Positions 178-63,282 of a DNA stretch of 64,000 bases are shown in pieces; positions within the stretch are counted from its first letter, which is position 1; the number at the start of each line of letters is the position of its first letter. This stretch comes from Dysidea avara (Eukaryota; Porifera; Demospongiae; Dictyoceratida; Dysideidae). Made by a program: the position numbers and the translations under genes. Under the pieces are notes generated by a model. It was not told the origin of the DNA. It searched no databases and was given only the letters and a program-made list of their open reading frames with translations. The stretch covers positions 19,237,633 through 19,301,632 of the forward strand of contig NC_089274.1 of NCBI RefSeq assembly GCF_963678975.1, given 5' to 3'.

Positions 178-3100
178 CTGAGCATAGAAGATGAATCCCT
201 TCAGTTCAATGGGCAGCTCAAAGTCAACCAACAGAATTAGAATGGATAACACAAGGACTGCAATACCTGATAGCACAACATATCACAACAACCATGCAAC
301 AATGAAGTTACAAAATCTAAATTACAGCAAGATTTCACACACAAAGTTATTCAAACCCCTGGAGACCACCTGATGTTCACATAACTGTAAAGTCCATATC
401 TCTAGAAGCCAGAGTTGGGGTTGTTACCTTAAAAATGTAACTAGTTACATATTACTCGTTACTTTTACGCGATGTAGTACGCTACAGTTACATATTACTT
501 ACTGAAAAAAGTAACAAGTTACATATTACTCGATACTCTGAGGGCTGTAACTAGTAATATTATTACATAATATTATACATAATATTATTACATTTGTTCG
601 TTACAAACTATAAAGTAAGTCCAACCTTCTAATTACAAGCTACCAGCCTATACAAGTACCACAAGCGAGACACATGTTTCTCTGGTGTAGTTCAGCCACA
701 TATACATACTTTGTTGTTGTATCCTGGCCTCAAGAGCACTCCCCATACACTATCATTCTTTATCCATGCCTATAACACTATCTCCAGTATTGTCTGGACC
801 CAAAATGCAATCAATCACGCACCTGGATACAATGCGCCTTAAAAGGAAGTAACGCGTTACACTCGTTACAATTTTCGGATGTAATATCCGTTACATATTA
901 CTCACTACTTTGTCATGTAACGCGTTATATTACTCGTTACTGTAAAAGTAATATTATTACATAATATGCTACATTTGTAACGAATTACCCCCAACTCTGC
1001 TAGAAGCATGGTATTGATGCTGATATCTATTCCAATAAAAGAGTCATTCTAGCATTCTGGTAGAATGGAATTACAGATAACTGATTTTCCACTGTAAGCA
1101 AATTAGCTTTTAAGACAACCAAAATAACGTAGTAAATTTGATACCAATTTTAGTAACAGTTCATACATAGATTCTTTTATCAGAGCTTAACATGCATTGT
1201 TATCTAGACTGTCTGATAGAACCAGTCAGGTGCTTAAAACAGCAAATGAACTCACAGAGGAGGATAAAGAGGACTATTCCAGCAGCACATTCCTCCCTAC
1301 AAGACTGTAGATCAAGTGTGACACCATATCCGCTAGAACATGTCCCACACAACCGACCTAATGTATGTACCAAATATGTAACCAATAATATACACATACA
1401 CTGTAGACAGACAGACACACACACACACACACACACACACACACACACACACACACACACACACACACAGTAGACAGACCTTCTCTGCCTTCAATACATT
1501 GAGCATCCTCATCATCAAATTCATAACGACAACCAGGCAATCTCCCCTGCTGGGAACAGCTAACAAATGCTGACAGTACTTGATAAGATCGTAGCTCTCC
1601 ACTTCCTTTGTGCATCTCTCCATAAACACCCTCCTGAAATACACCAACAAAGTTCTAATAACCTAATAGCATAACATGCCCTGTATTATGACTGTTTGAC
1701 AGTCATCGGACACAGGCCCCACAATACAGTGGAAACTCCAAGCTACCTGTAACTGGAAGTGTTTGTGTGGAATAGGTCATCCTCAAAAATATGGCTGGCT
1801 AGTAAACTATGTGAGTGTGACTGTCATTCTGTATGTGTTGCATGACACGTTTTTTTTTTTTAAATTTTTAAATTCCCATGTATCCTCCCAAATCAGTACA
1901 GTCCTGGGGAGCAATTACAGCAACTATTTCCCCAGGATGCTTGCACCACTGCAATTTGTCCCCCCCCCCACACACACACACAGAGGCAATGCACAGCACC
2001 ACAGTTTATCCTCCTTTTGCAGAAAGTGGTCCTATACTCAGCAAAAAATCTTTTTTTTTAAAAACTACCTTGTTAAATTGCATGAAGCAATGGAACACCT
2101 TGTCACTCAACTGGAGTCAATCAACTATTGACAGCACAAAAGTTATTGAACGACACTAACACAACTACTGGGAAGGATGCTCCAGGAGTTATCGGAAAAC
2201 TGCTCTTCCTTAAAAAGCTATTACCGATGCTCAGGTCCTGTGACCTGTGGTAAGGAGTACAAGTCTTGGGTTTAGTATATCTAGGGTCTGAGGACTTGAG
2301 GACCTCCGGAAGCCTAGAAATGGATGGATCTGGTTGTGTTAAAACCTGTACTCAGTCTGTACTACAAATTTAATCATTATATTTCATATCTAACATGCCA
2401 AGTCCTTGCAAAATACTTGGTAAAGCATAGGTCACTTCCTTCTCTGTAAAGTAAAATACAGAAGATTACACATAAAGAGGTTGTATCCAAGTGAGGCAGG
2501 GCCAGAGGGTAGTGGTCCAGTAACACTTGAGGCGGGCACCTAAGCTAAGAAGGCTGAAAGTCTTTACTAACTTGGATAGAACCTTGACACTGAGCTGAAT
2601 GCAAGAAAAAATCCCAGACCAGGCAGGGACTTTAAAAAATTGCACTGTAAGTACAAAAGTGCCTAACAAGCCAGGATACAGAATTTTCTGTATGTCCTAG
2701 CTTAGTAATGCAAATCTGAGATACTAGAAATTTCTTACGTTTTCATTATCACTGGATCAACTGTGTATGACATACATGTAAACAACATAGCATTCGCTGA
2801 GCTAGAGCACCACCATATACAGGAAAAGGGCAAATAGCCAGCTAAAGTGTATTTAGTCAAATAAACTTGATGAATTCAAACTTAATAAATATGAAAAATT
2901 ACATGTTGTTTTATTTATTGCAGCTGTTTATTCATCTTGCGTGATCAATGTTTGTCTTGTGTGATGGATATTTGTGTGCCACACCCATTTTTAAACTATC
3001 GCAATTTAGCTTGCTACTATAGTTGAAGCCCTGAAACACCTTATAAAGTGATAGATAATGCATGAAAGACATCACTTTAGCCATTACTCGGCATTTACAG

Positions 3101-63000: not shown

Positions 63001-63282
63001 AATAGATGCATTAGCTGTGATGTGTACCGTATCAGTTAGGTAATGGTGGTCACTGACCCGCTCCAGATTAATAACTACTTCATCACCAGTTTGAACACTG
63101 GAGTTGACCACTGCCAACAACTCTGTCAGTCCACTACAGCTAGCTCCCTGAGCATTAATGTTCGCCTGGCTCCAGATCGTCCCATCACATGGCGGGAAGC
63201 GCGGGGCTACATTAAACAGTCGCTGACACTGGGCAACTGCGAGAGACAAGAGAACAAGTGAGAGCACAATTTCCTGTTGCAT
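54041..63282 (-). CDS. Gene 7: beta-helix-repeat multi-pass membrane protein, 1331 aa
   Basis: Exons in transcript order: 63282-62795, 60439-59690, 59641-59530, 59483-59332, 59282-59159, 59109-58967, 58916-58826, 57474-57151, 56532-56371, 56209-56060, 56009-55844, 55791-55690, 55634-55546, 55495-55439, 55392-55244, 55190-55010, 54962-54828, 54774-54628, 54573-54254, 54194-54041. They total 3996 nt with the frame closing at TAA. The signal peptide is EIVLSLVLLSLAVAQC. Ectodomain repeats include CEFTNNQAGVGGGGIFFAY and STFDRNSASELGGGYAV. Exon 8 carries an Asn/Asp-rich insertion of about 50 residues, then six prolines, absent from all paralogues. Linkers are RCPPGFVLKG, YCPPGYCRC and VLCGKCRGGKGVSALL. 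The membrane domain (about 915-1280) has LYFPYDFCLYNSTTALES, RWYWDGSVQCF, WWGGVELGRRLVLLIF and CPYKDFVTCLVESLL. The tail is short and acidic without the genes 3-6 motif. The first intron is 2.36 kb. Confidence 0.9.
57186..57335 (-). repeat. Asn/Asp-rich trinucleotide tract in gene 7 exon 8
   Basis: Repeated AAC/AAT/GAC triplets encode runs of N and D (NNNNDNNDNNND pattern) followed by DDDPPPPPP. It interrupts the ectodomain segment corresponding to the GWPGE exon of the paralogues and is likely a disordered surface loop. Replication slippage of a trinucleotide repeat is the probable origin. Confidence 0.85.
57475..58825. other. Gene 7 intron 7 (1351 nt)
   Basis: Mostly AT-rich sequence. A short tandem (GTGATCTCTACTTGCAAG-like, near 58112-58150) is visible. 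No exon or element is identified. Confidence 0.55.
60440..62794. other. Gene 7 intron 1 (2355 nt)
   Basis: It separates the N-terminal exon from the repeat exon, at the position shared with gene 1. Two diverged tandem units of ~55-60 bp containing GGTACTACAAATGGTGAAT / GGTACTGCAAATGACGAAT lie at about 60840-60955. There is no other gene. Confidence 0.55.

Follow-up and report, generated by a model that had tools for sequence, protein, structure and literature searches.

An intron-rich array of seven predicted multi-pass surface protein genes in the sponge Dysidea avara and its relatives across the genome

Gene models of the array

The window, i.e. the whole stretch of 64,000 nucleotides that was analysed (G000:C3:19237633-19301632), belongs to a genome of 550.8 Mb in 108 contigs and carries an array of seven tandem genes. 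Genes A to F were rebuilt, ranging from 1180 to 1306 codons in 19-24 exons, and gene G crosses the left window edge. Positions in the window are as follows.

1..9190, minus strand: gene G, divergent seventh member, with its ATG at 9190
8679-9190 and 7878-8624, minus strand: ectodomain exons of gene G; the model is poor beyond 7878
1256-1357, minus strand: stalk exon of gene G
~173-266, minus strand: first membrane exon of gene G; the remaining membrane domain lies left of the window, in L009
9331..14580, plus strand: gene A, encoding 1180 aa in 19 exons; its stalk starts at 12410 and its membrane domain at ~13134
17530..22353, plus strand: gene B, encoding 1273 aa in 19 exons; its stalk starts at 20357 and its membrane domain at ~20650
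26163..32324, plus strand: gene C, 19 exons, 1306 aa; the start is one of several in-frame ATGs
37893..44929, plus strand: gene D, 19 exons, 1300 aa; the start is one of four in-frame ATGs
46632..52204, plus strand: gene E, 19 exons, 1288 aa
53559..63282, minus strand: gene F, modelled with 24 exons and 1276 aa; first intron of 2355 nt

Gene B was assembled manually from ORFs that diverged copies have in common, and its protein was employed as query for a purpose-written spliced protein-to-DNA aligner, which recovered the same 19 exons of B. Alignment scores against the B protein were 2054 (A), 4414 (C), 4464 (D), 4249 (E) and 1326 (F), compared with -377 to -474 for six shuffles of the D region. 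For G, the whole-protein score of 170 reflects a weak ectodomain model, but the membrane domain is supported by a score of 307, where five shuffles gave 108-128 and the opposite strand gave 96. Across the stalk and membrane domain, the other five genes align to B with 42-79% identity. The cluster of seven proposed in the first-pass annotation is therefore real, and its outer positions, 178 and 63282, fit an exon of G and the start codon of F, respectively. The final models of A to F contain zero internal stops; as the aligner penalises stops, these open frames arise in part by construction, and the scores relative to the shuffles are the real evidence. The annotated length of ~1230-1330 codons for six complete copies likewise held as regards freedom from stops, whereas A with 1180 aa falls under that range. 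In A, a 5' mini-exon (9331-9388), read by eye from the sequence, is needed and the C-terminal/3' end is uncertain; in F, exons are uncertain between ~58.8 and 56.4 kb and beyond ~54.3 kb.

Genes B to E possess 18 introns each, whose positions were made equivalent by alignment. All are GT-AG except for one GC-AG intron in D (A and F contain one GC-AG intron apiece), and most measure 43-65 nt, with enlarged introns in single copies (C 439 and 947 nt, D 891 and 1390 nt, E 776 nt). Intron 10 of E contains a (CA)n array of 185 copies (49656-50026). G (minus strand) and A (plus strand) start head to head, with ~140 bp between their start codons (9190-9331), which suggests a shared promoter region. 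Between C and D, nested inverted repeats of MITE-like appearance are found (32744-33902; 171-nt arms, 97% complementary). Two ORFs that are similar to each other, and which we take to resemble GIY-YIG proteins, are present at 63496-63951 and at L034:7454-7921, with no Pfam match at E<=0.01.

Protein architecture and constraint

The models of A to F bear out the domain order described in the first-pass annotation: a hydrophobic N-terminus is followed by repeats of the Pmp or helix type, then by a Cys stalk and finally by a multi-pass membrane domain. The N-terminus of G is likewise hydrophobic (N-termini of all seven were judged by eye). Within the first 640 residues of A to E, 12-16 FxxN motifs (shuffle means 3.9-4.2) and 5-7 GG[AGM] motifs (shuffle means 0.4-0.6) were counted, F and G being left out, and these counts exceed every shuffle. 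The same segment contains 15-19 NxS/T sites. In Pfam, B reached 20.5 bits with Chlam_PMP (PF02415), just below the gathering score of 20.6, and 14.6 bits with Beta_helix (PF13229), whose gathering score of 25.9 is exceeded in gene G (32.6 bits at C3:19246007-19246480). A profile of exon 1 gave no sequence match in the PDB. We infer that the N-terminal half adopts a right-handed beta-helix fold and lies outside the cell.

The motifs CPPGYC.C and FPYDFCLY are present in 6/6 of the proteins A to F. The label "invariant" previously given to the signatures had to be dropped, since D reads GKGISAL, A carries VDLGR and MPYKE, F has CPYKD without VN, and in G, PIPYCL replaces FPYDFCLY and GGWDLGR replaces the VELGR motif, whereas PYKE..VN..E is kept. 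Hydropathy scanning according to Kyte and Doolittle detected 7-8 hydrophobic peaks per protein in A to F, and nine places were obtained as the union over the aligned copies; the nine TMs of the first-pass annotation are thus found across the alignment but not in any single scan. When nine passes are modelled with the N-terminus outside, the more positive loops come to lie inside and some copies have NxS/T sites in outer loops, according to our reading. The membrane domain would accordingly be best read as nine passes, N-out, with the C-tail inside.

B to E are clearly under purifying selection, as had been claimed from their open frames: dN was 0.174-0.232, dS 0.597-0.692 and dN/dS 0.29-0.36 in the six pairs. 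By part, dN/dS amounted to 0.19-0.26 in the membrane domain and 0.31-0.40 in the helix. In the C-tail, values of 0.29-0.92 (4/6 pairs computable) indicate weak constraint, which argues against a conserved signalling motif in this part. When mean dN/dS was followed along the genes in 90-codon windows (28 windows, with 4-6 usable pairs in each), it never exceeded 0.57 and dN>dS did not occur, giving no sign of diversifying selection.

That no named family covers the membrane domain was supported by searches of Pfam, NCBIfam and PDB, which remained empty or below cut-off. For this domain, Pfam listed no match at E<=1 for A and G and none at E<=10 for B, NCBIfam none for A and B, and the PDB none for the window profile and no relative of A1, A2 or L022 at E<=1. 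Two weak matches were treated as chance, i.e. F with DUF6232 (E 0.17, 12.8 bits vs. a cut-off of 27.4) and A3 with TPTE2 in the PDB (E 0.072). A profile search against TRP-like and GPCR families of Pfam, an idea of the first-pass annotation, listed no such match either, leaving both readings of the membrane domain without Pfam support. Screening for a bacterial or viral origin of this domain, with A3 as query and two peptide patterns per set, yielded 134 pattern matches in genome contigs and 31 in viral contigs and no tblastn relative, and this origin was rejected. Among the literature matches listed, no paper was recognised by title or start of abstract as describing the family, and none naming DUF7630 or PF24633 was found.

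Near-identical tracts in four neighbouring genes

Alignment of B, C, D and E revealed two tracts in which all four copies are near identical (B coordinates, plus strand).

17680..18189, plus strand: homogenised tract 1, ~510 nt of exon 1; the N-terminal ectodomain is near identical in B, C, D and E
20231..20530, plus strand: homogenised tract 2, ~300 nt spanning intron 9, together with the adjoining end of exon 9 and the greater part of exon 10 (stalk)
20305..20356, plus strand: intron 9 of B, 52 nt; counterparts are C 28914-28965, D 41482-41533 and E 49332-49383

In tract 1, identity of all four copies was at least 0.90 per 30-column block, compared with 0.17-0.50 before and 0.30-0.70 after the tract within exon 1. 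Blocks of tract 2 ranged from 0.80 to 1.00, apart from one 30-column block at 0.47. Where all four genes encode the same residue by a degenerate codon, the codons were identical in 149/157 cases in tract 1 and 58/68 in tract 2, versus 217/442 elsewhere. As the tracts were picked after inspection, Fisher p-values are descriptive; in a longest-run test, the run of 34 surpassed the maximum reached by 5000 permutations (30), which is a modest excess.

Intron 9 measures 52 nt in all four genes and shows 96-100% pairwise identity, whereas the remaining 17 introns range from 0.02 (owing to length differences) to 0.88; introns 7 and 8 are 20-51% identical. Because the near-identical tracts include an intron while other introns drift, the data point to gene conversion among B to E around a variable helix middle. 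Intron 10 is 76-88% identical among B, C and D and 4-5% identical to E, which carries a long insertion, and raised pairwise identity in some of introns 10 to 15 suggests further pairwise events. Alternatively, the tracts might reflect DNA-level constraint, either regulatory or at the codon level. Both tracts are mostly coding and the protein is conserved, and codon sharing with gene A is somewhat elevated in tract 2 (27-32 of 42-43 codons, compared with 67-91 of 157-191 elsewhere); constraint or an older event is thus possible for part of tract 2. Such constraint would however have to explain near identity of intron 9 in four copies next to introns 7 and 8, and tract 1 does not extend to gene A (39-43 of 80-81 codons shared), so that we regard this alternative as improbable. 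The homogenised tracts add a new, if indirect, hint of a recognition or adhesion role.

Genome-wide relatives, possible role and known systems

When the stalk and membrane domain of A was searched against the genome, at least 96 matches at E<=0.01 were obtained (99 of 889 candidates scored): 24 lie in the window, 7 are short and exon-like elsewhere, and 65 fall into open frames 311-2745 aa long, spread over 12 contigs, this number of 65 being a lower bound. The corresponding domain of L022 gave at least 113 matches (113/113 scored, 1068 candidates), 7/113 of which contain stops in frame. Comparison by hhalign linked A1 to A3 (stalk plus membrane domain; 99.1%, E 1.2e-18) and to L035 (98.8%, E 1.1e-16). 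One of the seven exon-like matches, H (C3:18.88 Mb), is an eighth close member; in a tree of 18 chosen members, it groups with A to F (support 0.963), with G next (1.000), and L023 is nearest to the window branch among the ten single-frame relatives included (0.966). By sequence comparison, the seven genes are one intron-rich branch of what appears to be a large genome-wide multi-pass family. That the domain order occurs in no named family, as the first-pass annotation had put it, is right as to the unnamed membrane domain, but the order is not unique to the array and recurs genome-wide.

L022 and L023 exceed the cut-offs of both Chlam_PMP and Beta_helix and L027 that of Chlam_PMP, with Chlam_PMP scores of 81.1 bits (L022) and 76.3 bits (L027). 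L035 has a related base and a stalk similar to DUF7630 (21.3 bits, which is below the cut-off), but no Pfam helix match. DUF7630 (PF24633) itself gave at least 132 hits in the genome at E<=0.1 (150 scored of 844 candidates), and 26/65 membrane-domain loci hold such a hit. None of the 132 lies in the window, whose stalks reached 6.9 bits (A; gathering score 27) or gave no match (B). Of the control genomes, 2/14 were matched, neither above the cut-off.

Profile scans of the flanks at E<=0.1 (L009, L010, L011, L033, L034; 28 kb on the left side and 20 kb on the right) detected G and, besides it, just a single weak match, in L010 (E 0.032, 9.3 bits); the helix profile had no match at these loci. 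L010 also contains an ankyrin-repeat ORF left of G (7070-7693, minus strand; Ank_2, E 4.5e-26) near a hydrophobic ORF (4254-4898) with no Pfam match at E<=0.01, and ORFs at L033:4134-5383 are retroelement-like by eye. On C3 near 15 Mb, loci with similar ectodomains (L012-L014, L030) have low membrane scores (65-123). At G000:C5:23.17-23.37 Mb, the close branch has three short matches of exon-like appearance, which may mark a further cluster.

What could these proteins do? The large repeat-built ectodomain with its many NxS/T sites, the constrained membrane base and the many copies lead us to a receptor role. In this model, the beta-helix half would stand outside the cell and bind ligands, such as microbial or self glycans or proteins, the conserved base would cross the membrane nine times and relay a signal, and the C-tail would lie inside. 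Copying between neighbours by gene conversion would keep the N-terminal part and the stalk alike, leaving the helix middle and the C-tail to drift. The family could represent a repertoire of surface or adhesion receptors. Against this stand the lack of positive selection, the 7-8 passes per protein seen by hydropathy and L035 with no Pfam helix. As a whole, the explanation by an intron-rich receptor or adhesion repertoire with helix-bound ligands, a nine-pass base and gene conversion appears reasonably probable to us. A bolder version is possible but doubtful, namely a repertoire based neither on immunoglobulin domains nor on GPCRs, in which hundreds of germline animal receptors share an undescribed nine-pass signalling base, a cap and stalk kept by conversion, and a diverging beta-helix middle.

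Transporters or channels with a base similar to fungal TRP/flavin-carrier proteins, whose large ectodomain only captures or filters substrate, would fit a base more constrained than the rest of the protein, its conserved polar and charged motifs, and the weakly constrained C-tail. They are nevertheless unlikely, as Pfam scans of A, B, F, G, L022, L023, L027 and L035 listed no match to PF06011 or other transporters, with the proviso that HMMER filters drop weak matches. Cell-cell or cell-matrix adhesion proteins anchored by the multi-pass base would account for the long repeat ectodomain with its NxS/T sites, but a nine-pass base more constrained than the ectodomain goes beyond the need of an anchor, which makes this reading distinctly unlikely. 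Unusual adhesion G-protein-coupled receptors, suggested by the large ectodomain, multi-pass base and inferred N-out topology, can hardly be right given that nine passes are a better reading than seven and that Pfam detected no 7TM, GPCR, GAIN or GPS match in B.

This genome-wide family of large, probably surface-exposed proteins, whose membrane domain has no name, is a candidate for how a simple animal discriminates microbes, food or kin. The array offers a small, well-modelled set with a testable layout of constant and variable parts, and the membrane domain would merit a family entry and a structure.

Adhesion GPCRs likewise place a large ectodomain on a multi-pass base, but the window proteins have ~nine passes and lack GPS/GAIN and 7TM matches. 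With chlamydial Pmps (PF02415), they have FxxN and GGA-type repeats in common, which in Pmps, a group of bacterial autotransporters, have been linked to the coils of a predicted beta-helix (PMC11166332). Unlike the Pmps with their C-terminal beta-barrel, the window proteins are read as ending in helical membrane passes, no barrel family was listed in the Pfam scan of B, and the genes contain introns. Part of the relatives' stalk is already known to Pfam, since DUF7630 aligns to their Cys stalk just before the membrane domain (window stalks score below its cut-off), and no tested membrane domain reached a Pfam cut-off. Proteins of a similar kind, likewise unnamed, are probably present in sponges, cnidarians and lancelets. 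Closest are the relatives in the same genome (L022, L035 and others), which possess a homologous stalk and membrane domain in the same order, L035 with no Pfam helix; they read through stalk and membrane domain in one open frame, whereas the window branch is distinguished by ~18 introns and its own FPYDFCLY-type motifs.
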